From IMG/VR virus record IMGVR_UViG_3300032304_002766, positions 1 to 40,050 of that record: DNA of 40,050 nt; one strand, 5' to 3'. The number at the start of each line of letters is the position of its first letter. Positions within the stretch are counted from its first letter, which is position 1. The stretch is from a virus. The position numbers and the translations under genes were made by a program. A model generated the notes under the pieces. That model did no database searches, had not been told where the DNA came from, and saw only the letters and a list, made by a program, of their open reading frames with translations. Below, piece after piece: positions 7,001 to 39,394 of this stretch.

Positions 7001-9813
7001 GTATTGTCATAAGTAACAAAGACATCACCATTCGAGTCACCAACTTCAATACTATTTGCGTCCGAACTTAATGTAATTGTGTAAACCAAATCATTGATAA
7101 CTGGGTCGATGACATATAATACGTTCTTTGTTAAACAATACAAATAATTATTATAATTGTTCCATTTAAAAGACTTTGATGTTGCAGTGGATAGACCAGG
7201 TAAATTTATTGTCTTCAATAAAAGAGTAGAATTTGCATCAACTACACTAACAGAATCTCCTAAAACATACATTGCACCAGAAATCTGTAAATAAATTATA
7301 TCTACTATATTTGAATTACCTGGTAGTGAATAGTTTAAAAATGAGTATGTATTTAGTGTTAAATTCGTTAAACTAAAAGATTGAGTAAACTGTTGTAAAT
7401 TAAAATTACCACCAATCGAAGCAGTCGGAACAATTACCGGAACACAACCTGTTGCTCCAAACCCCGTACTAAAAGCAATTGTAACGTAGGGAGAAACATC
7501 ACATCTTGGATCGGTAGTTCCCCAAAAAGGACCTTCGTAACTTAGTACCAAATGATACGGACCCAAATATAAGATATTATATTCTTGATTATTAAGTGGA
7601 TAAGATGTGTTGTTAATCGTTACAATTTGACCTGTTGCGAATGGATTATCCTCAAATGAAGAAGTGCCACCATCTGGTAAAATAATTGCATTTGATGTCA
7701 TTAGAGCTCCAAATTTACCCAACAACTTTCTTTCTATTCTAAATAAATCTATACCAGGTAGGCTTGACTTACCGACACTTACGACATAATCAACTCTTTG
7801 ATTTTGTCTTTTGACCCTAAATTCTAATTTTTGGTTTGTATTTACTACATAAATTCCCCAGTCATCTAATTCTGTTGCATATTCGTTAGTCCAATTTTCT
7901 AAAGCTTCAACTATATTTGCTGTTCCACCTATCACATTTACAGTTTGACCATAACTTCTACCATTGATTGTTAGATTGAGATAGTTAGACATATCAAAGA
8001 AAATTACATCGGAGTGTTGGATATAATAATCTGCTGTTGTTCCTACTTTTACTTCGAATTGAAGTGGAACGTTTGGATATTCAGTTGTTAGATTTATCGA
8101 GTTATAATAAATTGAACTCGCTCCTCCGATATATTGTAATGTTGCAAATATACCTAGTGAAACAAGTCTTGTGTAATGTTCGGATAACCAATTTCTAAGA
8201 GTTCTATCGATGGTTCTTGGTAAATCAACTGATAAACCAACATAAATAAAGTCTATTTGCTCTTCGTACTCTTGTCCATTTATTCTTATTTTCAAACCAT
8301 ATTCATCCAAATCCGTAAATACTATGTTATAACTGAAATTCTCACAAATATCTTCATTGACTTCTGGTTTCAATTCTTCTAATACACCGACATTTTGTTC
8401 ATATATTATCCTTGAAGTCCCAGAACTGGTTGTTCCAAAATTGGTGACTGAAGACTGCGTAAAAAGATAATAGTTAACAATTGCATAAGGACTTGGATAA
8501 ACCAGATCGGCATGTAGTATTGAGTTTTCTAAATACAAATCTACTTTGAAAAAATCCAAATCAGCTGCATAGGTTTCAACTGCTGATCCCATAGTTGTCA
8601 GAGCACTTTGGGTAAAATTTGTAATATAGTATAGTTTATTTGTCGTTAAATGGATTTCTGTTGAAAGGAAAGTTTCATTAATTAACTGTGAGTTTACAAT
8701 AAGGTAAGTTGGCTCGCCCCAGTAATTTGTATCATCTGGACTTATAGAACCTGTTCCGAAAACACCGGTGTTATTATTTGCTGACCAAGTATATGCCTGA
8801 ATACATTCGTAAATCCTATTTTCAAATATAACTTGTGACCCAGTAGCAAAATAAGTTGCATTTGAGATTCCTCTATAATTTGGAATTGGTTCAATTTTCA
8901 CTGGATTCGGATTCAGTGTTGATTGTGCTAATACAATTTCAGTACCTGGTTTCAATGTTAAAGGTATGGTGTCACTGAAATTAATTCTATTAGCGACTAT
9001 ATCTAAGCCACCTGTGTAAGCAACGGGTAAATCAGTTTTTAGAATCAACTCTATTGCTAGATTCTGACTTTGAGTAAACTGATTCAAATTTAATTCATAT
9101 CTTGAGTATGCTTTATCGTAAACATCGATATTGTTGATTGTATAGATACCATCATTTTTCTCTGTGTTTATAATATTGATTTTTCTACCATTGAAATATC
9201 TATCGTAAAAATCTGGTTCAGACCAATCACTTAATAAAGTATTTAATTGTTGATCCACATAATTATAGACACCTATCGAGTTGAGACCGCTTATTGTAAT
9301 GTTTGCATAAGAACTTGTTAAAGCGAGTTGAGATCCATAAAGACTTATGAATCTTCTATTATCAACGGAAGTAATAATTAAGATTGCGTTCTTCTTTGTT
9401 TGTATAACTGTATAAGAAAGGTTTGAGGTACTGAATTCAAAAATTGGATTTTCAAAATAAACTTGGCTACCAATCGGAAATTTTTTCTCAAAATCTTTAC
9501 CATAAACCCATTTCGAGAAGAAAGTTGGATCGGTGTTTACCGGTTCAATTTTAGTTACCTCTTCTCCAGAATAAGGACTACCTGTGTAATTGAATCTATA
9601 TTCGTTGAAAAGTTGAAATTTTTGCAGTTTAAGTTCACCTGGATTTTCATACTCAAAAGCATCAATCCTTTCGAACATATATATACCTATGGTTTTGAAA
9701 GTATCGTTTCCATTTTCATGAAAAATCAAATCACCTTCCCATCTTTCGTCACCGGCTCTCCACCTAAAATTATAATTATCACCTTCTTTATTAAAGAATA
9801 CTAATGATTGCAT
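4051..9813 (-). CDS. Very large baseplate / tail-tip structural protein with beta-propeller-like region
   Basis: This 1920-residue protein is the largest gene in the window. It is rich in Asn, Thr, Ser and Tyr, as expected for beta-structured tail proteins. Residues about 830-1150 read as repeated beta-strand blades (patterns such as VIDPVINDLVYTITL and LLRIDLSGRTVFATYSITG), like a YVTN/NHL-type beta-propeller. Around residues 1490-1535, the segment with RNDIFSYVGSYKAIINAINY followed by a Phe-Gly-Tyr resembles the segment that defines P2 gpI-like baseplate proteins. Residues about 1705-1775 contain two segments of the carbohydrate-binding type (WNPFTTYNVGDKVFYYDDIW), and related GSQVxFEN segments occur near the N-terminus. 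I infer a baseplate wedge or tail-tip protein able to bind surface glycans. It is transcribed alone, convergent with the preceding unit and divergent from the leader-gene cluster. Confidence 0.75.
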   Translation of the reverse strand: MQSLVFFNKEGDNYNFRWRAGDERWEGDLIFHENGNDTFKTIGIYMFERIDAFEYENPGELKLQKFQLFNEYRFNYTGSPYSGEEVTKIEPVNTDPTFFSKWVYGKDFEKKFPIGSQVYFENPIFEFSTSNLSYTVIQTKKNAILIITSVDNRRFISLYGSQLALTSSYANITISGLNSIGVYNYVDQQLNTLLSDWSEPDFYDRYFNGRKINIINTEKNDGIYTINNIDVYDKAYSRYELNLNQFTQSQNLAIELILKTDLPVAYTGGLDIVANRINFSDTIPLTLKPGTEIVLAQSTLNPNPVKIEPIPNYRGISNATYFATGSQVIFENRIYECIQAYTWSANNNTGVFGTGSISPDDTNYWGEPTYLIVNSQLINETFLSTEIHLTTNKLYYITNFTQSALTTMGSAVETYAADLDFFKVDLYLENSILHADLVYPSPYAIVNYYLFTQSSVTNFGTTSSGTSRIIYEQNVGVLEELKPEVNEDICENFSYNIVFTDLDEYGLKIRINGQEYEEQIDFIYVGLSVDLPRTIDRTLRNWLSEHYTRLVSLGIFATLQYIGGASSIYYNSINLTTEYPNVPLQFEVKVGTTADYYIQHSDVIFFDMSNYLNLTINGRSYGQTVNVIGGTANIVEALENWTNEYATELDDWGIYVVNTNQKLEFRVKRQNQRVDYVVSVGKSSLPGIDLFRIERKLLGKFGALMTSNAIILPDGGTSSFEDNPFATGQIVTINNTSYPLNNQEYNILYLGPYHLVLSYEGPFWGTTDPRCDVSPYVTIAFSTGFGATGCVPVIVPTASIGGNFNLQQFTQSFSLTNLTLNTYSFLNYSLPGNSNIVDIIYLQISGAMYVLGDSVSVVDANSTLLLKTINLPGLSTATSKSFKWNNYNNYLYCLTKNVLYVIDPVINDLVYTITLSSDANSIEVGDSNGDVFVTYDNTQVVDIWYFGNFTSTPSKTITLSGFGKGLVYNPSENDIYLSQDDNNLLRIDLSGRTVFATYSITGLNPELFYDSINSSVYYFDSVGLKNINNNITVPVFSGTSSFKSIVYNHNSGVVVVSQNTKLSEITLSNTLTNSFTTTNYGNLAVSNYDENTYLPSITNPVVFILDKQNSSVVRAQTVNSPVLKMVFDPERNSMFGIQPGTNTLVEISVVLASVYQQLSTTFSTNFNNQLGTLGSNYTPHPDLWLNTREYLRKPRENYNDEPFVKYIWKWETDEYPQMFLFDFSGDQLPITGSYAYTGTKPLELVTLNRNPNKDITKVSLPEYQQTIFDEIETELVHVDSETDLTFVPEPLQTFLGFRSDDEGTLTSTLLLIKREEISFTITPNSINNDYIEFTTTTSGEFYGIIKLNVNSNSLFTYDLNGTPRGLKPGQIIQITINDITNVRTKFLSQNNGRTFKIRRISSREIQVDFIDLMIPERNIIQDYPKSGITTYLSVKISVLDKTIGRFVVSGQTEIEDVRYKVELSNTGHLIDPDDVYIFKPYDINEQGIDWTYMNKKRKEMLMVRNDIFSYVGSYKAIINAINYFGYNDLELYEYYRNVNISSPDFFKLFKVEIPDIFDNSVAGWKSNDFIKHLLPNSNFELTNLFNLTFKITDKEGNNVLQYSLNEVIIKLQGLKYWLQRKVIPITHRILDITGRADWVNTTGITHRNYDVKILNIRQSMTPIDFVLSEAYLMPVNSGSTVYTCVVDFYYAVEEELPDSFDICIRTYKTYKEWNPFTTYNVGDKVFYYDDIWESMISRNKLKNPRRYENAPEWNTETDYLLGQFVKYDEFIYQYIGTQSSFSQSGTSSNLLTPPEDITTNGSLASWVDNTEWRKIGLEPVQTLREWRNDLNSYNFTIDSNIDPFIVIEVTSDNGYGQVFTQKKNYEIRGLNDLFTGYEGEKIEPFTPITQITGPVVTVQGSTTTNRRSGQFSNTPSIIYP

Positions 9814-9833
9814 CTACGATTAAAAACTTTTAG

Positions 9834-9846
9834 TTATATATTAAAA
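9834..9846 (-). promoter_or_regulatory. Candidate late promoter element for the large baseplate gene
   Basis: On the minus strand this reads TTTTAATATATAA, ending about 20 bases before the ATG. The same string occurs divergently at 9871-9884 and upstream of many other genes in the window. The assignment as a late promoter is inferred from recurrence and from the gp55-like sigma gene. Confidence 0.5.
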
Positions 9847-9870
9847 ATTTAGTTTACTTTCAGTATTTAT

Positions 9871-9884
9871 TTTTAATATATAAG
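9871..9884 (+). promoter_or_regulatory. Candidate late promoter element for the leader-gene cluster
   Basis: TTTTAATATATAAG lies 20 bases before the ATG of the first leader gene. It is a near copy of the element facing the opposite way at 9834-9846. See the finding on the recurrent AT element. Confidence 0.5.
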
Positions 9885-9904
9885 AATAATATAATTTTTT
9901 AGAT

Positions 9905-10489
9905 ATGAGAAGAATAGAATTGTTTGATGAGTTCACACCAATAAGTGAAAATTTAAAATATCACGTTGATAATAATATTTCTATTTCGGAGTGTATATTT
10001 AGACCCTATTCGAAGTCTTTCTATAATTTGATGTTAGAGGCTAGAGCACTCTGGGATAGTGGCAAAATTCATTTAAATGGTCTTGATGAAGAGTTATTTT
10101 CCGAAACTGATTTAGGTCGTTTTGCGATTTACGAAGGTCGTATGGTTCCTTTAGATTTACCAATGACTATTGAAGATGAGATAAATGAGGCTGAATATCA
10201 TGGGAGAGAAGTTGAGTTAAATAAGCCGATGAGAAGTAAGGGACCGAAAAAATATAAAGTCTATGTTAAAAACCCAGAAACTGGTAGTGTTAATGTAGTC
10301 AACTTCGGTGATGTTAAAGGTGGTCTTACAACTAAAGCTGGAAATAAAAAAAGAGCAGCGTCATTTGCAAAAAGACATAAATGTGCCGAGAAAGTTGGTA
10401 AGCCTGGTGCTAAATTGACACCTGGATATTGGGCGTGTGTACTGCCTCGGTATGGACTACTTAAAGGTGTTTCGAGTAGATTCTGGTAG
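9905..10489 (+). CDS. Leader-type protein with basic Cys/Trp C-terminal domain, probable virion protein
   Basis: A 194-residue protein. It begins MRRIELFDEF, a member of the leader family, followed by an ISE site. Residues about 60-120 form an acidic domain with DLGRFAIYEGRMVPLDLPM. The C-terminal 75 residues are basic: a KKYKVYVKNPETG segment, a VNFGD turn, then KKRAASFAKRHKC and PGYWACVLP. This last arrangement (RxxSFxxRHxC ... YWxC) recalls a domain I know from many T4-like phages, often encoded near head genes; no biochemical function is known to me. It is the first gene of the rightward cluster and has its own candidate late promoter. Confidence 0.7.
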   Translation: MRRIELFDEFTPISENLKYHVDNNISISECIFRPYSKSFYNLMLEARALWDSGKIHLNGLDEELFSETDLGRFAIYEGRMVPLDLPMTIEDEINEAEYHGREVELNKPMRSKGPKKYKVYVKNPETGSVNVVNFGDVKGGLTTKAGNKKRAASFAKRHKCAEKVGKPGAKLTPGYWACVLPRYGLLKGVSSRFW

Positions 10490-10516: not shown

Positions 10517-10915
10517 ATGAAATATTTGAGTAGATTTCAAATATTTGAATCATCTAATAGTTCGTTTGTTAAAGATTTTCTAACAAATTTTGGTATGCTT
10601 ATATCACTTAATTTTAGTCAAATAACTAAGATGGGTAAAGATACTAACTCAACAGATGGGCTTATTGAGATGATGAAACAACTTAGAAAACCAATAATAA
10701 ATGGTAAAAACTATTGTGATTTCTTAAAAGATAATATAGATGGTGTTGTCGAAAATAAAAAATTACTTTCTGCTCTGCTAGATATAGTAAGACAATATTT
10801 AAATTTCATAGAACCAAGAGTTAAAATGTTTGTGAAAGATGAGGCAAAAAATAAAAAATTTTGGATAGAAAAAATTGATGGTTTAAAAAAAGATTATTTG
10901 GAAATAATAACATGA
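10517..10915 (+). CDS. Leader-type protein, unknown function
   Basis: A 132-residue protein that starts MKYLSRFQIFESS, a clear member of the leader family. The rest is a helical, Lys-rich domain (for example a MMKQLRKPI segment and a C-terminal FWIEKIDGLKKDYLEII) without recognised motifs. Its stop codon overlaps the ATG of the next gene by four bases (ATGA), so the two are translationally coupled. I do not recognise the family. Packaging into the head is a proposal based only on the leader. Confidence 0.65.
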   Translation: MKYLSRFQIFESSNSSFVKDFLTNFGMLISLNFSQITKMGKDTNSTDGLIEMMKQLRKPIINGKNYCDFLKDNIDGVVENKKLLSALLDIVRQYLNFIEPRVKMFVKDEAKNKKFWIEKIDGLKKDYLEIIT

Positions 10916-11175
10916 TATTACCATTTATAGAAAAAAAAGAAGAAGATAATGTCTTCATCAGAACTTTCAGTTCGGATACTGAAGAAGAATCTTTATTGTG
11001 GCATCGCGATAAGGAGGATAGAATAATAGAATCTTTAGAAGAAACAGACTGGATGTTTCAATTAGATAATCAATTGCCACAAAAAATAGAAGGTCAAATA
11101 TTTATACCAAAAGAAATTTACCACAGATTGATAAAAGGTAGTGGTGATTTAAAAATAAAATTAATTAAATTTTAA
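10912..11175 (+). CDS. Small cupin-like phage protein
   Basis: An 87-residue protein. The pattern LLWHRDKEDR, then WMFQLDNQLP, then IPKEIYHRLIKG matches a family of short cupin-like phage proteins I recall with the same order of motifs (WHxDxxDR, W-Q-DN-LP, HRxxKG). The His residues could form a metal site, but this is not established. It lacks the leader seen in its neighbours, overlaps the preceding leader gene by four bases and is followed by a new candidate promoter, so it belongs to the first small operon of the cluster. Confidence 0.65.
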   Translation: MILPFIEKKEEDNVFIRTFSSDTEEESLLWHRDKEDRIIESLEETDWMFQLDNQLPQKIEGQIFIPKEIYHRLIKGSGDLKIKLIKF

Positions 11176-11182
11176 AATTTAA

Positions 11183-11194
11183 TTTAATATATAT
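11183..11194 (+). promoter_or_regulatory. Candidate late promoter element for the ferritin gene
   Basis: TTTAATATATAT lies 21 bases before the ATG. It matches the AT element found before the other transcription units. Confidence 0.45.
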
Positions 11195-11215: not shown

Positions 11216-11776
11216 ATGCAAATCAAAAAATTTTTAAAAGAACAAATTGAGAATAAGGCTATTCAGCCTGCTAATTCTAAGGGATTAATGACACTCAAAA
11301 CTTTACCAGATACAATTATTTCAACTTTGAATGAAAGAATCGGTGATGAATATACAGCATATTATTTTTACAGAAATGCGGCTAACTGGTGCAAAGATAA
11401 AAACTATAAAAAGGCTACACAATTTTTTGAATCTGAAGCAGCCGGTGAATTAGAACATTCTAAAGGTCTTCAAGATTATTTAACTCAGTGGAATACAATT
11501 CCAACAATTCCACAAGTAGAAACTACACAAGAATTTGAATCTTTGGTTGATATTATAAATAAAGCTTATGTTTTAGAATATAATTTATTGATGAAATATT
11601 CAAAAGACCAACAGTCATTTTTAGGTGTTCACCCTGCGACATTCAATTTTATTCAAAAATATGTTGATATACAAAACGGTGAAGTTTCTGAATATTCAGA
11701 TTTTATAAATGCTTTGAATTTGATTGACTATACCGATAAGTTCCAAGTGTTATATTTTGAACAAAATTATTTCTAA
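11216..11776 (+). CDS. Ferritin-like protein (non-haem ferritin type) with N-terminal extension
   Basis: A 186-residue four-helix ferritin. Aligned by eye to E. coli FtnA, all ferroxidase ligands appear kept: Glu45, Glu78, His81, Glu121, Gln153 and Glu156 (for Glu17, Glu50, His53, Glu94, Gln127 and Glu130). The SEAAGELEHSKGL and PATFNFIQKYV segments are typical. It should oxidise Fe(II) and store iron in a protein cage. Compared with FtnA there are about 28 extra N-terminal residues, starting MQIKKFLKEQIE, which resemble the leader family of its neighbours. A candidate late promoter precedes it and another leader gene follows after five bases. The family call is firm; whether it goes into the virion or acts in the infected cell is open. 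Confidence 0.88.
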   Translation: MQIKKFLKEQIENKAIQPANSKGLMTLKTLPDTIISTLNERIGDEYTAYYFYRNAANWCKDKNYKKATQFFESEAAGELEHSKGLQDYLTQWNTIPTIPQVETTQEFESLVDIINKAYVLEYNLLMKYSKDQQSFLGVHPATFNFIQKYVDIQNGEVSEYSDFINALNLIDYTDKFQVLYFEQNYF

Positions 11777-11781
11777 AATTC

Positions 11782-12957
11782 ATGAAATATATAAAACTAT
11801 TTGAAAATTTTTTAGATGAATATCTTATTGAAGATAGAAGATATATTCATGGTGATTTAGAGACGCAGATTATAAACTTTGTACAAAAATATAAAGGTAG
11901 GGAAGATAAAATATTTGTTTCTTTTAGAAGTTCTGAGCATGTTACTATGATTAATAGGAAGAATACATTTGGTACACCTACTGGTATCTATACTTATCCT
12001 TGGAAAGGATATTTTGACAAAAGATATGAAGAAAGAATTAAAGGAAAAAAGGTAATCAATATTAATTTACTAGTACCATTTACTGGAAAAGAACCTGCAA
12101 AATATATTTACCTTTATAAAATAAAAGATGATGCTAAAATTATCAGTAATAGCACTAAGTATGAAGAACTTAGAAAATTTGCCGAAAAAATAGAGCCTTT
12201 CTATCCTAATAATATTTTTCTTTCTAAATATTTAAAAAGTGAAGATGATTATTTAAACTTTTCAAAAAATCCATTTTTGAAAGGCATTAAATGTCCAAAT
12301 TGTGATATGGGAGAAGTTGTTTGTCATGATTGTGAAGGAGAGGGTTATTTTGAAGATGGTGAGGAATGTTATAATTGTTATGGAACTGGAAAAGATGAAT
12401 GTTATCCATGTCATGGAACTGGGTATCAATCAGAGGTTTTTGAAGACGTTCCTGCTCATATATTTTGGGTGTTATTATATGATATAGTTGGGACTATTGG
12501 TGGCAATCTTCAATTAAAATTTACAAATTTATGTAATAAAATTGGTGTTGATGGTTTTGTAGATTATGGTTCTGGTTATATACATCCGAATGAAAAAATA
12601 CAGGCAGTGCTTCTAAAGGGTAGATCGATAATAGAAGATTATGCGATTGTCTCAACTGATTCTGGAATGGATATAATATCTATATCTTCTAAAATCTTAG
12701 AGATGGATAAAGATGAATTCAAGGAATTGTTAGACTTGAAGATTTATGATAGAAAAACCGACAAATATAAGGATGATGTAGTTAATAATTTAATTAGGAA
12801 TTTGAGAAAAGAAAATAAGTTAGAATTGCTTTTAATAAAACTAACGCAAGAAGAACTTAAAAACTATAGGCATATTTTTTCTTTCGTAGAAAATATAAAA
12901 AAGTTTTTGACCGAACCCGAACTAAATTTTTTACAAGAGTTAGAAAATAAAAATTAA
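11782..12957 (+). CDS. Leader-type protein with DnaJ-like zinc finger inside a polyvalent-type domain
   Basis: A 391-residue protein. Residues 1-10 are the archetypal leader MKYIKLFENF, followed by a LIE site near residue 17. Residues 171-214 carry four CxxC pairs (171/174, 181/184, 196/199, 207/210) with GxG spacers, the pattern of the DnaJ cysteine-rich domain, likely binding two zinc ions. The zinc finger splits a second domain: FVSFRSSEHV and GTPTGIYTYPW before it, and VDGFVDYGSGYIHPNEKIQ after it. I recall these two halves as continuous in large phage and plasmid polyvalent proteins; an ADP-ribosyltransferase-like or other toxin-like activity is possible but not shown. There is no J domain, so it is not a true DnaJ. 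The C-terminal 100 residues are helical and charged. Confidence 0.7.
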   Translation: MKYIKLFENFLDEYLIEDRRYIHGDLETQIINFVQKYKGREDKIFVSFRSSEHVTMINRKNTFGTPTGIYTYPWKGYFDKRYEERIKGKKVININLLVPFTGKEPAKYIYLYKIKDDAKIISNSTKYEELRKFAEKIEPFYPNNIFLSKYLKSEDDYLNFSKNPFLKGIKCPNCDMGEVVCHDCEGEGYFEDGEECYNCYGTGKDECYPCHGTGYQSEVFEDVPAHIFWVLLYDIVGTIGGNLQLKFTNLCNKIGVDGFVDYGSGYIHPNEKIQAVLLKGRSIIEDYAIVSTDSGMDIISISSKILEMDKDEFKELLDLKIYDRKTDKYKDDVVNNLIRNLRKENKLELLLIKLTQEELKNYRHIFSFVENIKKFLTEPELNFLQELENKN

Positions 12958-13369: not shown

Positions 13370-13394
13370 AATTTTAAAAATAAAAATGAATAAT

Positions 13395-13976
13395 ATGAGA
13401 TATATTAAATTATTTGAAAACTTTAATCAAACCTCAACTTGGGAGGCAAAATTAGAAGAAATTAGAAATGGACTACCAACCAACGAAAATATTGAATTCT
13501 CTTGGAAACTAGAAAGTTCATCAGTTGATGATACTAAACAAGGTTTTCTTTTTATAAGCTTATACAAAAATGGTTTACATTTGAATCTACAGTGGAATAT
13601 TGATTTGGATTCATCTAAAATACAATTTATTGCCGAAGGGCAAGATTCTAAGGGAAATTCAGTATCCGAATTATCTTATAATACAGAGGTTGACAATATA
13701 GACCAGGCTTTAGAAATGGTTGAATCGGACATAGAAGATTGTCTATATGCTGATGAGGTAGAGTTTTACGAAGATGAAAGTGATATACTTGAAAGCTTAA
13801 TACTTGAAAAAAATGTAGCAAAAAATCAATCTCTTTGGGCTTCCTGTAAAGCTTGGGCAAAAGAAAGATACGATGTTTGGCCTTCTGCTTATGCTTGTGG
13901 TGCAGCAGCCAAAAGATATAAAGCTAAAGGTGGTAAATGGAGAAAAGCTAAGAAGAGAAAAAAATCAAGAAAATAA
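13395..13976 (+). CDS. Leader-type protein with basic C-terminal domain
   Basis: I choose the ATG that gives MRYIKLFENF at the N-terminus because it matches the leader family; an ATG nine bases upstream adds MNN. Residues about 20-140 form an acidic beta-rich domain. The last 50 residues are sharply different: a SLWASCKAWAKERYDVWPSA segment followed by KRYKAKGGKW and a run of Lys/Arg to the end. I recall the SLW...PSAYA...YKxKGGKW domain from phage and giant-virus proteins of unknown function. The highly basic end suggests nucleic-acid binding. It lies three bases before another basic leader gene. Confidence 0.7.
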   Translation: MRYIKLFENFNQTSTWEAKLEEIRNGLPTNENIEFSWKLESSSVDDTKQGFLFISLYKNGLHLNLQWNIDLDSSKIQFIAEGQDSKGNSVSELSYNTEVDNIDQALEMVESDIEDCLYADEVEFYEDESDILESLILEKNVAKNQSLWASCKAWAKERYDVWPSAYACGAAAKRYKAKGGKWRKAKKRKKSRK

Positions 13977-13978
13977 AC

Positions 13979-14302
13979 ATGGTTAAAATTAAAAAGTTTG
14001 AAGAGTTTTGTTACGAAATCAACGAGAAGAAAAAGGCTAAAAAACCTTATGCAGACACCAAAGGTGGCTTGGACAAATGGTTTAAAGAAAAATGGGTAGA
14101 TATATCCAAAACTAATCCTGATGGTTCTCATCCACCTTGTGGTAGAGATGATGCTAGTAAAGGTGGTTACCCTAAATGTAGAAAAGCAAAAGTCGCTGGT
14201 AAATGGTCTAAGAAAAGAAAAAAGGCGGCTGTTGCGAGAAAGAGGACAGCAGAAAAGAAAGGTGAAAAAGGTAGTGGTAGAAAACCAAACTATTCAAGAT
14301 AG
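13979..14302 (+). CDS. Leader-type basic protein, DUF5872-like
   Basis: A 107-residue, strongly basic protein. It starts MVKIKKFEEFCYEINEKKK, a leader with an INE site. The rest matches what I recall as DUF5872: GLDKWFKEKWVDI, then a CGRDDASKGGYPKC segment whose two Cys could bind metal, then a Lys/Arg-rich tail ending RKPNYSR. The family occurs in phages and giant viruses and has no known activity to my knowledge. With its partner upstream it makes a pair of small basic proteins, both with a leader. A condensing role on packaged DNA is a plausible inference. A terminator follows directly. Confidence 0.75.
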   Translation: MVKIKKFEEFCYEINEKKKAKKPYADTKGGLDKWFKEKWVDISKTNPDGSHPPCGRDDASKGGYPKCRKAKVAGKWSKKRKKAAVARKRTAEKKGEKGSGRKPNYSR

Positions 14303-18219: not shown

Positions 18220-19857
18220 TTAAACATTTATTTTGTATATCCATTTTTCTTGACCACAAGAATATGTTCTATAATAACCTAATTCATGCAAAATCTCAGA
18301 TTCGGATTTTGTCGAATCGTATCCTAATTTCACCAATCTTTTTTTATTGAAATTGAATCGATGTTTTCTAATTCCATCTACTATCCAAAAATAATTGGGT
18401 TTAGAGGTGGAAATTCTTTTAAATCCAAGTTTTTGATATAAATTTCCTTCAAAGATAGATATGTCCGAATAAGAAATGATTTCATTAATTGATTCAACAT
18501 TTTTCAAAAAATAAGCAAACAATTTTGAAGCCGCTCCAATAACATTAAAGCCTTTTCTATTACAAAATCTTATCAACTCAAATTCTTTCTTGGAATTAGT
18601 ATATCTCCAACCAAACGTCATCAAGCTAACTAATTCATCAGAATAATATAAACCAAATTTATATTTAGATGGACTAAATCCTTGTATGTGGTTTTCTTCC
18701 AAAAAATTAGAAGCATCAGATGGTGAAACTTCTTTCACCTGACACTTTCTTGCAAATATTTTATTCTCGGATAACCCCAATCTATTCAATATTATTGATT
18801 TTACTATATTTCTTTTCAGTTTCCAATCATCTTCCCAAATATGAATTAAATGAATTCCCTTTTCTCTACAAAGATTAGATTTATCTCTATGGTAGTATTT
18901 ATCCAGATAAATCTCTGAATGCCAATAAACTCCATTCATTTCAATTGCTAGATTATAATCTGGTAAATAAATGTCTAATTCTTTACCACCCAGTACAGTT
19001 CTATCCTTTCTGATGTAAGAAATTGAAAGTGAATTTAGAAATTCTTGCATTTCTAATTCCATATTGGATTGACTCAAATCTATGTTTAAAAAATTTCGGA
19101 TATTTTTACACTTTCTGACTCTATCTTTAAATTCGTCGGTTTTAGAATAATGATCCACTCCCCAATTTTTTTGTGAAGTTTGTTTGGTCTTTTCTAAAAA
19201 ATCTGGTGTCTGTGAAAAATTATCCACTCCCCAGTTTTTTTGACTTGTCTCTCTAACTTTGACTTTGAATTCAGATGTTTGTGAGTATCTTTCTACACCA
19301 AATTTATCCAAAAAAGATTGAGTCGTTTTTTCCTTTATCTCTTCAATTTGTTGCGGATATTCTTTCCCCCACTTTTCTAAATATGTTGATTTTATTTTAT
19401 CTTTACCCTCTTCTGATTGAAAAACATTATCCACTCGCCAATTTTTTTGACAAGTTTCTTTATATTTTTTCTTGAAATCTTCAGTTTTGGAATAATGTTC
19501 AACACCATAAGTTTCTAATAAACTAATTTTAAGTTTATTTTTAACCTCATCTGATTGCATTGGATTCTCAACGCCCCATTTTTCGACACAAGTTGCCTTC
19601 CTCTTTTCATGGCTACACTTCTGACAAAAATATTTTTCTTTTAGTCCCGATGTATATTCCCAGTAAAAACGAAATTGGTTAGGCTTTTCAGATAAGCAAT
19701 TATCACATATAGATGTGATAATTGCTGTTGAACCAGGCATTAAATCTTGAATCTTTACCGATATTGTCTTTTTGAATTGTATGTCATATCCCCTTTCCTT
19801 AAAATGATTAAAATTAGTTCTATGACCCTTGATTAAAACTTCTTTTTCCTTTATCAT
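18220..19857 (-). CDS. Free-standing homing endonuclease, Vsr-like / EDxHD type
   Basis: I choose the ATG at 19857; a TTG 27 bases upstream is less likely. The protein (545 residues) has three parts. The N-terminal part contains two CxxC pairs, probably a zinc finger. Then come seven repeats of about 23 residues (type NWGVDNFSQTPDFLEKTKQT), a likely DNA-binding array. Residues about 270-365 form a Vsr-like nuclease: a Glu in MELEMQEF, Asp in KELDIYLPDY, EMNGVYWHSE and HLIHIWEDDW, matching the EDxHD homing endonuclease family. The C-terminal 180 residues look like an acetyltransferase-type fold (FGLYYSDELVSLMTFG, then RFC and YQKLGF). Such enzymes cut related phage genomes and spread by repair. 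It is a paralogue of the gene at 22107. Confidence 0.8.
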   Translation of the reverse strand: MIKEKEVLIKGHRTNFNHFKERGYDIQFKKTISVKIQDLMPGSTAIITSICDNCLSEKPNQFRFYWEYTSGLKEKYFCQKCSHEKRKATCVEKWGVENPMQSDEVKNKLKISLLETYGVEHYSKTEDFKKKYKETCQKNWRVDNVFQSEEGKDKIKSTYLEKWGKEYPQQIEEIKEKTTQSFLDKFGVERYSQTSEFKVKVRETSQKNWGVDNFSQTPDFLEKTKQTSQKNWGVDHYSKTDEFKDRVRKCKNIRNFLNIDLSQSNMELEMQEFLNSLSISYIRKDRTVLGGKELDIYLPDYNLAIEMNGVYWHSEIYLDKYYHRDKSNLCREKGIHLIHIWEDDWKLKRNIVKSIILNRLGLSENKIFARKCQVKEVSPSDASNFLEENHIQGFSPSKYKFGLYYSDELVSLMTFGWRYTNSKKEFELIRFCNRKGFNVIGAASKLFAYFLKNVESINEIISYSDISIFEGNLYQKLGFKRISTSKPNYFWIVDGIRKHRFNFNKKRLVKLGYDSTKSESEILHELGYYRTYSCGQEKWIYKINV

Positions 19858-20340: not shown

Positions 20341-22083
20341 TCAATCTATCCACTTTTTAATTCTTTCTAAACTTCCCACAAACTTCTTCTCTCCGTTATT
20401 TACTAATTCTTCCAGTTTATCTTTCAACTCAATTTTCAAATTTTTATCCATATTATAATAATATTCAAATAAATCTGTTGAAATTTCATCTCCTATCCAA
20501 TCTACACCAAGTGCTTCTGCATCAATAGACATGAGTTTGCCTACACTTGTTTCTTTTAATATCACACCGAATTCATGAATAAAATATTTACCTTCTGTTT
20601 TACTCCAATCCAATAATCTTTTGTGTATATATTCTTCTGGTATGAATTCTCTCAGAAATTCAGAGCAAACTAAATTTTCAATTTCGGTGAAATTCGTTTC
20701 ATCTAGTGCGGAAAATATTTCAGATGAATAACTTGCTTTATATCTACCTGTAATTGAAAGTGATTTAACAACTCTTACGGCATCATCAGCCAGAATAAAA
20801 TCTTGGTAGTGATAACTAAATATAGAATCATTTACATTTATCCATTCCTCTCTAAATGATTCCCATTTAACTTTTCTTGATTCTTTCGGATAGAATCCGT
20901 GATTTTCTGGTCTTCCGATTTCTACTTGAATTGAATTATTCAGTTTAATCCAATCATTGAGTGGTCTCGACCAAACAGCATTATCTATTGGTAAGATTTC
21001 TTGGTAGAAATTAGAAAATTTACCATTCATATCATCAAATTCTCCATTGGTATCGGTTAAAATATAAGACTTCTTTTTAGCTTCTTTATCATTGTGTAGT
21101 GTACCCGATTCAACATCTAACCTTTTTAGTGTGTCCATATAAGGATATTTATCAAATTTGAAATTATTTAATTTTACACTTATCTGGGCTGTTATTTGTG
21201 TATCACCTAAAACAAATTTATCAAATTCGTGTTGTTTTGTATTTGACCTTCTGATATATCCGTTTTCATCTGACCATTTTTCGAAAAGTTTTTTGGTTGG
21301 TTCATCAATTGAATAAATTCTATCCATGAATTTATTTGTTCCATTTACTGTATTTTCTAAAGTCCATAAAAGAGCTCTTCCTATTAAACCTTCTGAATTT
21401 TTTAGAATCAGTAATTGACAAACATCTGGATTTTTTGTATAAATATCAAAATAATCTGAACATCTTGAGTATCTCATACAGGAATCACCTAACTCACCGA
21501 TAGATTCTTTATAAGATTTTTCATTATACCAAGTTATTATATCGTCACCAGAAACAATTTCAAATTGAAATTTATTAATTGATGTACTTTTATATAAATT
21601 TACAAAATCTTCTATTTCTGTATCTGTGTATCTATTGGGAAATATTTTTCTGACTAATTTACCTATACTTGTGAAATTTCTTGACTTAGATTTCAAGTCA
21701 AATTCTTCTGAGTCCCAAAATTGGTCTATGTCACCTCTTGAAAGTTGTCCTGTGTTTAATTTATTTATTTTTAGGTCTATTAAACTATCGATTGTATTAG
21801 TGTCCCAAGACTTATATTTTGTAGAAAGTTTTGTAGAAAGTCCGTTTTTGATTGACTTTTCTACATTTTTCATTTGAGTGAATGATATAGAACCTGGTTC
21901 ATCGGATAAACCGATAAATGTCATATCGGGTTTAACAAAATTTTTTTCTACTGAAAATAAATCTACTGCTATTTTACTTTTTGATGAGAGTTTTGCTAAA
22001 ATTTTTCTAAATTCAGTCGAAAAATATAAATTCGATTCATTTAGAATTTCAAATTGTAGAAATTCATTGTATTTAAATAGCAT
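20341..22083 (-). CDS. Leader-type large protein, conserved in phages, unknown function
   Basis: A 580-residue protein starting MLFKYNEFLQFEILNES, a leader-like start with an LNE site at residues 14-16. A recognisable core near residue 200 (GELGDSCMRYSRCSDYFDIY, followed by LIGRALLW) is one I recall in phage proteins of unknown function. It is soluble, acidic and has no membrane segments or known enzymatic motif. It lies between the late sigma factor and the second homing endonuclease on the same strand. The AT element TTTAATATATAA precedes it and overlaps the end of the upstream endonuclease gene. Packaging in the virion is a proposal from the leader. Confidence 0.65.
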   Translation of the reverse strand: MLFKYNEFLQFEILNESNLYFSTEFRKILAKLSSKSKIAVDLFSVEKNFVKPDMTFIGLSDEPGSISFTQMKNVEKSIKNGLSTKLSTKYKSWDTNTIDSLIDLKINKLNTGQLSRGDIDQFWDSEEFDLKSKSRNFTSIGKLVRKIFPNRYTDTEIEDFVNLYKSTSINKFQFEIVSGDDIITWYNEKSYKESIGELGDSCMRYSRCSDYFDIYTKNPDVCQLLILKNSEGLIGRALLWTLENTVNGTNKFMDRIYSIDEPTKKLFEKWSDENGYIRRSNTKQHEFDKFVLGDTQITAQISVKLNNFKFDKYPYMDTLKRLDVESGTLHNDKEAKKKSYILTDTNGEFDDMNGKFSNFYQEILPIDNAVWSRPLNDWIKLNNSIQVEIGRPENHGFYPKESRKVKWESFREEWINVNDSIFSYHYQDFILADDAVRVVKSLSITGRYKASYSSEIFSALDETNFTEIENLVCSEFLREFIPEEYIHKRLLDWSKTEGKYFIHEFGVILKETSVGKLMSIDAEALGVDWIGDEISTDLFEYYYNMDKNLKIELKDKLEELVNNGEKKFVGSLERIKKWID

Positions 22084-22099
22084 GGAAATATTTTTTTAA

Positions 22100-22111
22100 T
22101 TATATATTAAA
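22100..22111 (-). promoter_or_regulatory. Candidate late promoter element for the 580-residue leader protein
   Basis: Reads TTTAATATATAA on the minus strand, ending 17 bases before the ATG. It is embedded across the stop codon of the upstream homing endonuclease gene. Confidence 0.5.
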
Positions 22112-23810
22112 GATTCAAAATCCACTTTTTATTACCACCATTATAAATTCTATGGTAACCCCATTCATTCATTATTTCTTCTTCGGTCTTATCTTTATCA
22201 CCACCTAATTTGATTAACTTGTCTTTTCTCCAATTAAATCTATGTTCTCTTTTCCCGTTTATGTTGTACCAATATCCAGGATCTGATGTGTGTAAATATT
22301 GAAACCCTAACTTTTCATACATATTACCATTAGAAATAAGATTATCTGAAAATGTTTCTATTGAAGATGGAGTGTATTTTTCTATGAAATATTTCATAAT
22401 TTTTGAAGCACCACCAACAACGCTGGTAAAATTCAGATTACAAAATCTTGTTAATTCCCAGACACCTTCTTTATTTCTAGTGCCTAAAGGTAATCTAAGT
22501 TTAGAAAAAGTCATTAGACAGACTAATTTGTTTTGGTAAAAAAGTCCGATTCGTATTGAAGATTTGCAGTCACCCTGAAAGTGATTTTGATTTAAGAATT
22601 CTTTTGAAGTTGTGTAATCAATTTCCCTAATTTGACATTTTCTTGCCCAAATTTTTTCTGATTTGCCTAATTTGTTTAATATAAATGATTCACAAATTTC
22701 TCTTTTCAATATCCAATCATCTTCCCAAATAGTTATTAGATTGATGTCAACTTCCTCTGCCTTTTTATGTTTTTGAAAATGATAGTCTTTTGGTCTTCTC
22801 AGAGAAGAGTGCCAATATAATCCATTAAATTCAAATCCCAATTTTGATTCTGGTAAGAATATATCAATTTCATGTGGATTTAATATTTTTCTGGAATTCT
22901 GAATTATTTCACCTCCATAATTTGATTCAATAAAATTAAATAATTGTGTTTCTTTGCCTGATATCGCTTTATTAATAGGATTACAAATTGTACAAATTTC
23001 TGTTTGATTTACATCTCTTTCATATAGATGAACTCTAAATATTTCAAATTCGTGATTATTGGGGCATTCAAGTTGAACTGACTTTTTATCTGGATAGATA
23101 TCAATTAAATTATAATTTGGATAATTTAATAGTCTTTTTAAAATTATTTTTTTGAATAACTCATTTTTCGAATCTCTACTCGAGTCAACGGTTTTCTGAT
23201 GGATTTCACTATTCATCCAAGGATGCTCACAACCATATCTTTCCAAATTAGTTTTTTTAAATGATTCTTTGTATTTATCTATGTTCTTTTTGAAACTCTC
23301 TACTCTCTTTTCACGAATCTGAATTGATTCTGATATGTTTTTAACACCCCAATTATTAAAAAGTGTTTCTGATGATTTTTTCTTGACTTCATCATTAGAC
23401 AATGGTGAGTTACCTCCCCATTTTTGATAATTAGTTTGAATTATTTTTTTCTTAATAATATCTGACTGAGCCGGTGATTTGGTGCCGAATTTTTCTAAAG
23501 ATTTTTTCTCTTTTATATCTTTTATTTTAGGATCGTTTGAAATACATTTAGTTGAACAATATTCTCTATATCCAAGAGTTGTATTTCTAAAATTTACCGG
23601 TTTATGACATAAATCATTTTTACAGGTTGGAACTTCGTTTAAACCATTCAGACAAATATATAATTTTTCTTTGAATGTGATATCTATAATTCCTCTCTCA
23701 TTACAGTAATCGATAATATAGTTATATTCATCCAGAAAATTTTTAATAAGATAACTAACCTTTGACAACTTTCCCGATGGGTCCTCTTGTTTAAATATAT
23801 CTAAGTTCAT
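22107..23810 (-). CDS. Free-standing homing endonuclease, Vsr-like / EDxHD type (second copy)
   Basis: A 567-residue paralogue of the enzyme at 18220. The N-terminal part has zinc-finger cysteines (CKNDLCHKP, CSTKC) and about four copies of the KWG...-type repeat; a further Cys/His segment (CPNNHEF ... CTIC) lies near residue 260. The nuclease core shows HEIDIFLPES, FEFNGLYWHSS and INLITIWEDDW. The C-terminal domain matches the other copy (IGLFYQNKLVCLMTFSKLR, RFCNLNF, MYEKLGF). All key residues appear present, so it may be active. It lies between the tail sheath terminator and the 580-residue protein, with its own AT element upstream. Confidence 0.8.
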   Translation of the reverse strand: MNLDIFKQEDPSGKLSKVSYLIKNFLDEYNYIIDYCNERGIIDITFKEKLYICLNGLNEVPTCKNDLCHKPVNFRNTTLGYREYCSTKCISNDPKIKDIKEKKSLEKFGTKSPAQSDIIKKKIIQTNYQKWGGNSPLSNDEVKKKSSETLFNNWGVKNISESIQIREKRVESFKKNIDKYKESFKKTNLERYGCEHPWMNSEIHQKTVDSSRDSKNELFKKIILKRLLNYPNYNLIDIYPDKKSVQLECPNNHEFEIFRVHLYERDVNQTEICTICNPINKAISGKETQLFNFIESNYGGEIIQNSRKILNPHEIDIFLPESKLGFEFNGLYWHSSLRRPKDYHFQKHKKAEEVDINLITIWEDDWILKREICESFILNKLGKSEKIWARKCQIREIDYTTSKEFLNQNHFQGDCKSSIRIGLFYQNKLVCLMTFSKLRLPLGTRNKEGVWELTRFCNLNFTSVVGGASKIMKYFIEKYTPSSIETFSDNLISNGNMYEKLGFQYLHTSDPGYWYNINGKREHRFNWRKDKLIKLGGDKDKTEEEIMNEWGYHRIYNGGNKKWILNL

Positions 23811-23913: not shown

Positions 23914-26900
23914 TTAAGGATTTATGAAACCACCTGCTGAAATTGCTCCGGTTCTTAGGATTGTAATGTTATTTACAATTATACCCATAGATTTAATCGG
24001 TTCAACATAAGTGTCTAATACACCAATCTGATTATCAATTATCTCATTAGTATTGTTTTCTTCATCACACTTGTTGAAATAATTATATAAACCATTTTTA
24101 TTTACATATTTCTCACAAATGATATCTGCTCTCAACTTGATTTCTGCTCTTACATCAGGTGTATTGAATCTCCATTGGAAATCTAACAACATTGCTGATA
24201 ATTCTCTTTCAAGTTCAATAAGAACCTCTCTAACGTGTATGTAAGAAAGAGCTGATTTGTAAAGAGTTTGAGCTGTGTTTTCAGTTTCAATCACATAACC
24301 TCTATTACGTTTGAAAACGATTGGGTTCATTTGTGCCCCATTCAAATTCTCAATATCTTCAAGTGATAAGTTTTGTTCAATACCTGCGATATTAGTAATT
24401 CTACCATTTGTAACACCTGCAGCTACTGTCCAAGGAACGATTGAGCTAGCATTTGAATTTAATTTTCTCAAATATGTGTTTGCTACAAACATTGCTGGTG
24501 GTACCTCTGCTGGTCTTCCATTATCATTGACAATTAGATAAGGTAAGAAATAACCAACACTTGAAACACCTCTGCCATCACCGAATGAGTATAAGAAAGC
24601 TGGACTTGATTGTGGATCACCACCTTGTGCTATGAATGATGTTTGAACAACACCTTCTGAATTAACAAATGTTGGTGAAGTTGAATTCTTGAATGACTTC
24701 ATTGAAGGCATATTAATGAATCCAAAACAATCTAATCTATCACCACAAAGATCAACTAATTGTTGTTTAGATCTTTCTGTTAGACCAAGACCAAATGAGT
24801 CTATAACATATCTGAAATCGATAGCTTCTTTGTTTGTTAATGCTTTTGCCAAAGTTGTTCCTTTAGCAATCAAATTAAGAATTGCTGTTTGTCTTGCTTC
24901 TGTTCCATCAGGCATTGAAGCTTCTCTCATTCTGAAACCTTTTAGTGAAATTCCTTTATATGTTGAAACATAATCTTCAATTGAAGTATATCTCATTGTT
25001 TGAAGGTCACCTCCGATATTATATTTCTCAATAGCTGCATCACAAGTGATTTCAACAAGTGTTGTGTCAGCTGCATATAATCTCTTAGAAAGGATTCTTG
25101 TTAGATTTCTTGGTTTTTCACCAGCGACTGGAGTTGTATCAACTTGAGCCTCTAAGAAATCACCAACTTTAACTTCTGTATATCTTGAACCTTTTACCAA
25201 AATCTTATTAGCAACTTGAGTATAACCTGCTGGTTGCTCGATTTCAATAGTTTGCTTATAGTTCAACTTATTCGACCAAACTTCGAATTGTGAATCATTT
25301 GTTGTGTCAATTGGTTCTGATGTAGCTAAAGATGAATCTGTGAAATTAACAAATAAATTTTCTGAAGAATTTAAATACATTTTTAAGTAATGTTTCTTAT
25401 CAGCATCCCAAATGAATTTAACATCTGATAAATCCTCATTTACAACATCAACACCATCCGTTTTATATATCTCATAAGTTCCTGGAGCATAATAAGTAGC
25501 TGTAATAGGGTCTATCAAATCTGTAACCACCACTGGATTTGCTGATGTCAATTGTATTGATGTAAGGTTAAGTGTAGAACTTGGTACATAAATCTTCTTG
25601 GTGTCATCAACATCAGTTCCTGTTGTAACAATAACATAACTGAATGTTCCTTCATTTTGGAAAACAAGTCTGACTGGGCTTGTTGGGTCCAAAAGATTAC
25701 CGTGGAAATAATCAGCTGTATTGATTTGTCCGTTATAGAAGTCTTGATAAAACTCTGAGTATTTAGCAACAACACCTGATGCTGTTGGAACACCAACTGT
25801 ATTTTTAGTTTCTAAACCAACTTGTCCAAGAGTCAACTCATTGTCAATTTTATAGAATACTAAGTTACCTGCTAAAATATCTGATGGAGTTGCGGTTAAT
25901 CCCAAAGAAAGTGTGAAACTCTTATTTGATGTCTGTGAAAGCGTTTGTGTTACAACACTAGAATTTTCCAAAGAAAACTTTTCTTGTGTGTTAAGGTCTC
26001 TAATCATGGTTCCTTTCAAAGCATCAACAGATTCGAAATAGTTGTACATTTTATTAAACAATCTCACTCTTCTATATTTTTCATAATTCTTAGAAGTTAT
26101 GGAACCTGCTGTATCTGTAAATTCTAGTTTTATTGAACCAGTTGTTGGTTGAGTAATCGAATAATCAGTTCCTAAGACTAAAGGATTATATCCTACACCT
26201 ACACCACCAGCAAAAGTATTACTCAAAGGTGTGCTTGTAATATTGGATGAACTACCGACAGTTAGATTGAATTGGAAAGAATCTCCATTTACAAGATCGA
26301 GTTGTCCTGGTGCTGATACAGTTAATGTTGCAGAAGAAGTCGCAAACGAGAACGTTCCAGAGAAAAGACCTGAAATACCATTTGAGATATCTGTAATGAA
26401 TGTTCCTAAATCACCACTTGATGCTGTTACAGAAGATATTGTTGCACCATTATAAAGAACTACCATATTTGTGCTTGAAGCACTTGGTGAACCACTGAAT
26501 GTGAATACAAGTGGAGAAGGATCTTCAGATGACTTGATTCCAACATCTACTATTGCAATACTGCTTGTTACGAAGTATCCACCAGCAACATTAAAACTGA
26601 AATAGTTCATGACTAAGTCTTCGGTTGAGGATGGACTCGGGAAAGTTCCTGTTACTGTACTGTGGGCTACCTCAATGTTACCTGTTGTTGAATTAAGATA
26701 AGCGACAGAATAATAACTTTGTGTTGTTGCACTTGTAGAATATTGTGATGAAGCAAAAGAGAACGTATATGTGTTTGCAACACCATCATTCACTAATACT
26801 TTGGTTCCATTTGTAATCAAATAAGCTTCTGATGAAGTCAAAGCACCTAAACTGGGTGCTGAAATATCATAACCGAACGTGATTGAAGTTGTTGTCCCAA

Positions 26901-28156: not shown

Positions 28157-28798
28157 TTATGGTTTTGATTCTTGTGTGCTTTGAACTTTTTCGGCTTCTC
28201 TTTCATTTTTCACCTTTAAAATTCCCTTTTGAAGTTCTTTCTTCATTAAATTCAATTTATCTTTAGCTTCCTTATCAAGTTTTTTAACATCGATTCCTAA
28301 TTGATCTATTTTTTTCTTTTTATTTTGTAGTTCTTCACTATCTTGCTCTATTTCTTTTTTTGATAGTTCTGCTGTATCGGGGTCTGTGTTAGCCGATTCC
28401 TCACCCATTTCTGTTTCTAATTTATCAATTTGTTTCTCTTGTTTTTGTATTTCTCTTTTTTTACTCGACAAGTTAGCCCATATTTCTATCAAAGGATTTG
28501 GGAAATTTATTCTACTTTTTTTACCGGTTTTTAAAGCGTCTAAAAAAGTTTTGATTTGAATTTGATCTTCTGGGTTTGAATTTATTTTTTTGAAAAAACT
28601 CAACAGTTTTGAATTTAAATCTTCCGAATCTTTTGCATTTTTATAAATAGTCTCAACTTCATTTTTAAATTTATTGAAATCATTTATGTCTTTCTCCATA
28701 TCGTTCAATCTATTTACGGTTGAATCTTCTTCAGTCGTATCAGTTGGTTGTGGAATTATTTTTTCTAAAATAAAATCCTTATATTTTAATATTCTCAT
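28157..28798 (-). CDS. Leader-type coiled-coil protein
   Basis: I choose the ATG at 28798, which gives MRILKYKDFILEKI, a leader with an ILE site, and sits one base after the stop of the preceding gene; the longer frame adds ten residues and would overlap that gene. The product has 213 residues, almost all charged helix, with Glu/Lys/Gln-rich coiled-coil stretches from about residue 110 to 200. There are no Cys clusters or membrane segments. The close spacing points to translational coupling with the 1047-residue leader protein, so the two may act together. The function is unknown. Confidence 0.65.
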   Translation of the reverse strand: MRILKYKDFILEKIIPQPTDTTEEDSTVNRLNDMEKDINDFNKFKNEVETIYKNAKDSEDLNSKLLSFFKKINSNPEDQIQIKTFLDALKTGKKSRINFPNPLIEIWANLSSKKREIQKQEKQIDKLETEMGEESANTDPDTAELSKKEIEQDSEELQNKKKKIDQLGIDVKKLDKEAKDKLNLMKKELQKGILKVKNEREAEKVQSTQESKP

Positions 28799-28799
28799 G

Positions 28800-37023: not shown

Positions 37024-37497
37024 ATGGAAATATTAACATTTAAAAAATTCAATGAAGGTTTATGGAATGATGTGAAAAACTTCTTTTTTCGTGGAGGATC
37101 ATCGGAACCAAAAACAGAATATGCAAAGGATTTGAAAGATTACAACCTTTCTTTACATCCATCTTCTGATCAACAAAGTATGACTGTCAAACATACTAAA
37201 TGGACAAAATTGAAATCTGAAACTAAGGTAGTTGCTGAAATCAATATAAATACGACACTTAAAACTAATTATCCTGTTTGGGATTTATATGTTTATTTTT
37301 ACGAAAGTGAATTACCTAAGGAAAAAAATTATAAACTTCCACAAGGATTTCCGAATCAAAATGAACAACCTTATGGAAGAGCTAAAGAAAGTTTCGCCTC
37401 CGAAACAGATAATGCTTTGAAGGTTTTTTTGGATTGGTGGAAGAATAATACTAATTCAGGTAGAGCAAAAAATCCAAGATATAAAGTCAAGTTTTAA
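37024..37497 (+). CDS. Leader-type protein, unknown function
   Basis: A 157-residue protein starting MEILTFKKFNEGLWND, a divergent member of the leader family. The remainder is a basic, beta-rich domain (for example VWDLYVYFYESELP) with a C-terminal FLDWWKNN and a basic end. There are no Cys clusters or membrane segments. The AT string AAATATATAG lies just before the ATG, overlapping the end of the terminase gene, so it may have its own promoter as well as be cotranscribed with it. It overlaps the convergent ClpS gene by four bases. Confidence 0.65.
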   Translation: MEILTFKKFNEGLWNDVKNFFFRGGSSEPKTEYAKDLKDYNLSLHPSSDQQSMTVKHTKWTKLKSETKVVAEININTTLKTNYPVWDLYVYFYESELPKEKNYKLPQGFPNQNEQPYGRAKESFASETDNALKVFLDWWKNNTNSGRAKNPRYKVKF

Positions 37498-39328: not shown

Positions 39329-39352
39329 AATGTGTGAAAAATGAAGTTTGGA

Positions 39353-39367
39353 ATTAAATATATATAC
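39353..39367 (+). promoter_or_regulatory. Candidate late promoter element for the Gln-rich gene
   Basis: ATTAAATATATATAC lies about 28 bases before the ATG. It is a variant of the recurrent AT element. Confidence 0.4.
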
Positions 39368-39394
39368 TTATATAAAAAAAATTTTAACAATTAT

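Follow-up and report, generated by a model that had tools for sequence, protein, structure and literature searches.

The stretch of DNA analysed here, referred to as the window, comprises 40,050 nucleotides and carries a ferritin gene within a cluster of genes whose products share a short N-terminal leader with the ferritin. The terminase large subunit encoded in the window belongs to the T4 gp17 family, and the record is therefore assigned to a T4-like myovirus, probably a jumbo phage. The ferritin locus and the two genes that place the window among the T4-like phages are as follows.

11185–11193, plus strand: late-type promoter-like motif TAATATATA, approximately 23–31 nt upstream of the ferritin start
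11216–11776, plus strand: ferritin coding sequence, FtnA-type fold, 186 aa, ATG start
11216–11299, plus strand: whole N-terminal extension, residues 1–28, of which residues 1–18 have pLDDT <50
11216–11242, plus strand: predicted capsid-targeting sequence MQIKKFLKE, with I3-x-x-F6 for targeting, L7-x-E9 as protease site and cleavage after E9
11348–11350, plus strand: codon of ferroxidase ligand E45 (FtnA E17), from alignment
11447–11449, plus strand: codon of ligand E78 (FtnA E50), from alignment
11456–11458, plus strand: codon of ligand H81 (FtnA H53), from alignment
11576–11578, plus strand: codon of ligand E121 (FtnA E94), from alignment
11672–11674, plus strand: codon of ligand Q153 (FtnA Q127), from alignment
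11681–11683, plus strand: codon of E156 (FtnA E130), variable among homologues (34 S, 11 E, 5 A)
23914–28092, minus strand: tail sheath, T4 gp18 family by family match, 1392 aa
34852–37011, plus strand: terminase large subunit, T4 gp17 family by family match

The product of the 11216–11776 gene is a genuine FtnA-type ferritin. Residues 36–169 match the Pfam Ferritin family (PF00210, E=2.4e-17), sequence comparison with the PDB gave bacterial non-heme ferritins as the best solved relatives, and the AF2 model (pLDDT 89) superimposes on FtnA structures with a TM-score of 0.88–0.91, normalised by target. The model contains helices A–D (residues 32–61, 65–91, 110–135 and 140–167) and a short helix E (residues 175–185), the residues of which are conserved among homologues; the protein may assemble into a 24-mer. 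A Dps-type identity was ruled out, FtnA rather than Dps providing the best sequence and structure matches. The four-helix bundle with its short helix E, the ferroxidase A/B ligands and Tyr24 are all shared with the FtnA proteins of E. coli (1EUM) and Vibrio (3QZ3); the phage ferritin differs from them in its N-terminal extension, in the loss of E49, E126 and E129, and at the E130 position, which is mostly Ser or Ala in the family.

The initial annotation had claimed that six metal ligands are kept, and alignment with solved ferritins, from which the ligands were assigned by FtnA numbering, bears this out: all six ferroxidase A/B ligands are present (E17=E45, E50=E78, H53=H81, E94=E121, Q127=Q153 and E130=E156). 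Five of these (E45, E78, H81, E121 and Q153), together with Tyr52 (FtnA Tyr24), are invariant in 50/50 homologues, and the sixth position, E156, is S in 34, E in 11 and A in 5 of the 50. Since Ser or Ala at this position recalls the Gln/Ala arrangement of animal H-ferritin, ferroxidase activity across the phage ferritin family is plausible. The third iron site has no ligands, FtnA E49, E126 and E129 being replaced by G77, I152 and G155; many functional ferritins lack this site, which is a feature of E. coli FtnA and not a requirement of the family. No close relative of the phage ferritin was found in the 84,980 genomes searched or among named phages, and recent capture of the gene from a host is therefore unsupported.

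The extension of approximately 28 residues, which had been reported as absent from FtnA, is indeed absent from solved PDB ferritins, the alignments with which start near query residue 28–33, and no cellular ferritin with the same extension was found in the 84,980 genomes. In the AF2 model residues 1–18 are disordered. No other part of the protein changes as fast as the extension, the mean identity of which to homologues is 0.16 as against 0.59 for the body. Initiation at M25 instead of M1 was considered and rejected: the close homologues L003–L005 have no Met near position 25 yet keep MQIKKF[LI]KE in frame, and the extension must therefore be truly translated. In these homologues 8–9 of the 9 leader residues are conserved and the remainder of the extension drifts, which places the functional signal roughly in the first nine residues and not in all 28. 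The earlier description of the extension as leader-like thus holds in that a leader is present and is shared with neighbouring genes, but the signal is limited to about nine residues; likewise, conservation of the extension in related phages extends to those nine residues in the nearest homologues but not to the rest.

These nine residues resemble the capsid-targeting sequence (CTS) of T4 internal proteins. In T4 IPIII, targeting depends on residues 4 and 7 of the CTS and processing on residues 8 and 10; the prohead protease gp21 cleaves after L/I-x-E, and the internal proteins are loaded by means of an N-terminal propeptide of 10–19 residues (PMC9026906). With the cuts in the T4 sequences placed by the L/I-x-E rule, IPII and IPIII begin MKTYQEFIAE with A after the cut, and IPI begins MKTFKEFTSTTTPVSTITEA, with the cut between MKTFKEFTSTTTPVSTITE and A. 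The window sequence MQIKKFLKE, set against MKTYQEF-IAE of IPIII, shows the same hydrophobic-x-x-Phe-[L/I]-x-E and is one residue shorter, with an N-terminal targeting motif at I3-x-x-F6 followed by the protease-site match LKE9. The corresponding match is INE, LNE, VNE or TNE in homologous ferritins, the leaders of which include MKTFKHFKGGTNEG. Homologues L014–L016 read MKTFKHFKGGTNE with G after the cut, 6/7 residues being those at the start of T4 IPI (MKTFKHF..TNE and G in these ferritins, MKTFKEF..ITE and A in IPI), and other homologues have the targeting motif, a spacer and then LNE, INE or VNE. With regular expressions that were set after the first sequences had been seen, the targeting motif occurs in 26/51 distinct homologue extensions (shuffled mean 3.0, maximum 9), and the motif followed by [ILVT]xE in 24/51 (shuffled mean 1.5, maximum 6). 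The N-terminus of the major capsid protein (MCP) of this lineage also carries [IL]NE, which is suggestive of a cleavage site there, with no column-for-column alignment to the T4 gp23 site.

The ferritin gene had been described as lying in a cluster of leader genes, and this was upheld by the neighbours at 9905, 10517, 11782, 13386 and 13979, all of which carry the leader. The leader-bearing ORFs of the window, apart from the ferritin gene, are listed below.

9905–10489, plus strand: leader-bearing neighbour MRRIELFDEF..., with a phrog_7595 domain at residues 93–178
10517–10915, plus strand: neighbour MKYLSRFQIFE..., leader match
11782–12957, plus strand: leader-bearing neighbour MKYIKLFENFLDE..., 391 aa, directly downstream of the ferritin gene, with CxxC zinc-binding repeats of DnaJ-like type, as judged from the sequence
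13386–13976, plus strand: leader-bearing neighbour, likely start MRYIKLFENF, with a basic C-terminus and a weak DUF5872 match
13979–14302, plus strand: leader-bearing neighbour MVKIKKFEEF..., highly basic, phrog_23735, with a weak DUF5872 match
20341–22083, minus strand: leader-bearing ORF MLFKYNEFLQFE..., 580 aa, of a multicopy family without a Pfam match
28157–28828, minus strand: ORF with likely start MRILKYKDFILE, another tag match, the choice of start being inferred
37024–37497, plus strand: ORF MEILTFKKFNE..., leader match
39341–40050, plus strand: ORF truncated at the end of the window, its true start probably MKHIRKFESF, the leader at which its G002 and G009 homologues begin

About 11 more members of the family of the 20341–22083 ORF occur in G002 and G009; in the window the ORF sits between two HNH homing endonucleases (18220–19857 and 22107–23810). 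By eye, two small genes of the window, 9905–10489 and 10912–11175, seem homologous to 72220–72759 and 71622–71906 of G025, where they form the same ferritin-adjacent neighbourhood, which suggests that the ferritin locus is conserved between the two.

In five related phages the leader is found across the genome. With patterns that had likewise been chosen once sequences had been seen, and among mechanically called ORFs, 65/336, 64/431, 38/288, 16/178 and 37/301 have it at their start Met (9–19%), compared with 2–4.5% at internal Met of the same proteins (p from 3e-5 to 3e-25). In G025, where the consensus is approximately MKxxKTFExF[IL]NE followed by A or S after the cut, 29/301 ORFs carry the complete pattern, which terminates in F[IL]NE, compared with 1% at internal positions (p=1e-19). 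Taken by itself, the strict pattern [FYILV]xxF[IL]xE reaches significance in certain genomes (G009 and G025) but not in G012, the targeting motif and the cleavage site being frequently set apart by a spacer of variable length. The cultured distant relative PTm1 has 9 leader-like starts among 337 ORFs, and the leader pattern is thus not a product of AT-rich phage DNA. The bodies behind the leader are unrelated, 151 leader proteins falling into 125 clusters after removal of the leader; T4 Ip1–3, too, have only the leader in common (PMC12373910).

In G025 the proteins without a leader include DNA polymerase, helicases, ribonucleotide reductase, thymidylate synthase, ligase, portal and MCP; the leader set contains none of those replication, portal or MCP families. 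Among the candidate cargoes are an adenylate kinase, a RimK-like ligase, a CCA-adding enzyme, an NFACT-R domain protein, a 2H phosphoesterase, a SET-domain protein and a DegT aminotransferase. Some tagged proteins may not be packaged, since their share of the ORFs far exceeds that in T4. The same excess over the number of proteins packaged by T4, the metabolic enzymes among the tagged proteins, and the longer MKYIKLFENF form that stands before the T4-like core in many leaders would also fit a phage-specific address elsewhere, such as a membrane, the replication compartment or a degradation pathway, with a merely convergent likeness to the T4 CTS. We think this unlikely, as the leader is followed without a break by an L/I-x-E site of the kind cleaved by gp21, one subset of leaders shares 6/7 residues with the T4 IPI start, a late promoter is common to leader genes and virion genes, and replication genes are without the leader.

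Codon use in the leader is near background for most residues, with the exception of Tyr in G002, and leaders that are identical as protein differ as DNA. The near-background codon use indicates that the constraint acts on the protein, and a DNA-level or regulatory origin of the leader is unsupported. It is similarly very improbable that the leader is a shared start region spread by recombination together with the late promoter, or a translation enhancer, rather than a protein signal. Near-identical copies of the leader do occur on paralogous genes within one genome (the MKYLKLFENF set of G002), and ip loci are variable hot spots in T4-like phages (PMC12373910), but neither the synonymous codons, nor the likeness in protein of leaders unlike in DNA, nor the conservation of residue properties at variable spacing would be expected from such a process.

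The leader was also compared between phages the ferritin of which does and does not carry the targeting motif. Flanking ORFs bear the leader in 62/175 cases in the former and 3/176 in the latter (p=2.6e-18), and contigs with leader-bearing flanks number 20/25 and 2/24, respectively (p=4e-7), a contrast that is largely one between phage groups and between related contigs, so that the p-values overstate independence. The distribution shows that the putative tag follows the phage and not the ferritin. A second phage ferritin group (contigs G020, G022 and G030) has no tag on the ferritin or on the other proteins of the same phages; a claim that this group is tagged was accordingly rejected and, judged by the predicted tag, packaging cannot be assumed for phage ferritins at large.

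Transcription of the ferritin gene is predicted to be late. The promoter motif that had been noted ahead of the gene is of the TAATATATA type that in relatives lies upstream of the MCP, portal and sheath genes, in agreement with the earlier reading of a late-type promoter belonging to the ferritin gene itself. In G012 the motif GATA[TA]ATA precedes structural genes, among them those for capsid, protease, portal and sheath, as well as the ferritin gene. The late motif or its counterpart is enriched at leader genes in G006 (12/30 versus 14/258, p=6e-7), G009 (p=2e-5) and G012 (p=1e-3), and more weakly in G002 (p=8e-3). A late promoter would suit cytoplasmic action equally well, and the ferritin might act only in the infected cell, as a metabolic gene product binding iron from the dying cell, with an extension that plays no part in packaging. 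Tagless phage ferritins do exist (L139, L144 and L159), and ferritins of phages and viruses have already been annotated. We nevertheless consider this explanation rather unlikely: it leaves unaccounted for both the hydrophobic-x-x-Phe and [ILV]xE that are retained in an otherwise drifting extension and the occurrence of tagged ferritin in contigs whose other proteins are tagged.

A protease that could process such a leader is encoded by the related phages. A Peptidase_S77 (gp21) domain was found in 10/11 contigs of at least 150 kb, including G002; in those relatives that were examined it adjoins portal and capsid genes of T4 type. The 40-kb window, which holds the T4-type terminase and sheath, has no capsid or portal gene, and no S77 protease was found among the window ORFs examined, the window being a fragment. 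The nearest large relative, G002, the ferritin of which is 77% identical, has a full head module, and the packaging machinery of the window phage is inferred from relatives such as this. The protease domain lies mostly in an ORF of about 630–718 aa, as opposed to the 212 aa of T4 gp21; in L031, L033 and L029 (G002, G009 and G012) the ORFs are of 654–718 aa, and the long ORF is perhaps a fusion with the scaffold.

Taken together, T4-style internal-protein packaging that includes a ferritin is the best explanation of these sequence patterns, with dozens of other candidates besides the ferritin. We consider it likely that a late-made bacterial-type non-heme ferritin is packed into the prohead of this T4-like phage as cargo and trimmed after LKE. 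Our current working hypothesis is that the ferritin would be synthesized late, alongside head and tail proteins, that I3-x-x-F6 of the leader would dock on the prohead core, and that a gp21-type (S77) prohead protease would cut after L-K-E9, freeing a nearly ordinary ferritin into the head among the packaged DNA. Either there or, once ejected, in the cell, the intact ferroxidase centre could oxidize and store Fe2+, and removal of Fe2+ would lessen Fenton chemistry near the phage DNA. A ferritin 24-mer is approximately 12 nm wide and the tube of a contractile tail approximately 4 nm, so that intact cages should stay in the head; individual subunits could be ejected. Protection of packaged DNA inside the head is slightly favoured; delivery to the host is the main alternative, since those T4 cargoes for which a function is known do their work once injected. 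Fitting a 24-mer into a packed head makes heavy steric demands, which counts against the model. A bolder version, which is possible but which we advance tentatively, is that the T4-type tag would serve as a general postal code bringing dozens of proteins into each head (ferritin, adenylate kinase, CCA-adding enzyme, RimK-like ligase, SET-domain protein, 2H phosphoesterase and others), with ferritin as working 24-mer cages, a cage within a cage, acting as an iron sink and antioxidant of the virion.

Several known systems offer parallels. T4 IPI, IPII, IPIII and Alt have the same kind of short N-terminal tag, with hydrophobic-x-x-Phe and L/I-x-E in front of unrelated bodies, and among the relatives of the window the leader likewise goes with late promoters and with an S77 protease in the same phages; the differences are that the cargo here is a ferritin, that candidate cargoes are several-fold more numerous and that an additional MKxIK segment frequently stands at the N-terminus of the leader. 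EncFtn, a ferritin-like ferroxidase, is loaded into an HK97-fold encapsulin shell by a short peptide tag, which is C-terminal and uncleaved. In contrast to EncFtn, the phage protein has the full FtnA-type fold rather than a half-ferritin, and ends in a conserved LYFEQxYF C-terminus with no tail. The large heads of SPN3US and phiKZ-type giant phages hold numerous proteins that lose their propeptides to the prohead protease (PMC5694885); several propeptides of their head ejection proteins exceed 100 residues, whereas the leader here is of T4 length. A ferritin-like protein, gp217, has been proposed in the proteome of the Vi01-like phage Sajous1 from a structure-modelling match, is encoded in a tail operon and was linked to the Ferrojan horse entry hypothesis; Sajous1 infection was independent of the host iron-uptake genes tested, and the passages of that report dealing with gp217 describe no capsid-targeting sequence (PMC10892097). 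A search of an open-access literature library brought up neither a CTS-tagged ferritin nor a genome-wide leader of this kind.

Iron handling by virions is debated, with little molecular evidence so far, and a ferritin with a cleavable CTS would make the question directly testable on one isolate. The tag also provides a sequence rule for proteins that are maybe packed and delivered by a large group of uncultured T4-like phages, one that covers candidate counter-defence enzymes and would make injected cargo, open to testing, of many genes so far hypothetical. Capsid engineering, too, could profit from natural tags by which folded metalloenzymes are loaded.

Some further features of the related phages are of interest. 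The leader precedes an adenylate kinase and a RimK-like ATP-grasp ligase domain in G012 (L070:19290-19916 and L070:5738-7195) and a CCA-adding nucleotidyltransferase and NFACT-R proteins in G009 (L068:12513-13679 and L050:10991-11407). The 2H phosphoesterase L065:2643-3176 of G009 (2'-5' RNA ligase superfamily, E=6e-9) begins MIIKNYLQFIKE, a close tag match, and has a weak, sub-threshold match to the anti-CBASS protein Acb1 (E=1e-5); it is a candidate for a pre-packaged counter-defence enzyme. Avoidance of the TAnnTTTG promoter at leader genes was tested and no difference was found. The motif TATATTTG, which is enriched upstream of G009 ORFs and was seen in G025, resembles the Bacteroidota sigma -7 element TAnnTTTG, hinting at Bacteroidota hosts. 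Finally, three ORFs of G022, in the second ferritin group (L180:2842-3702, 9271-9597 and 9609-9926), have a different repeated N-terminus, MKQxLNEQFRRMQKLAGIITEG, which is possibly another tag.
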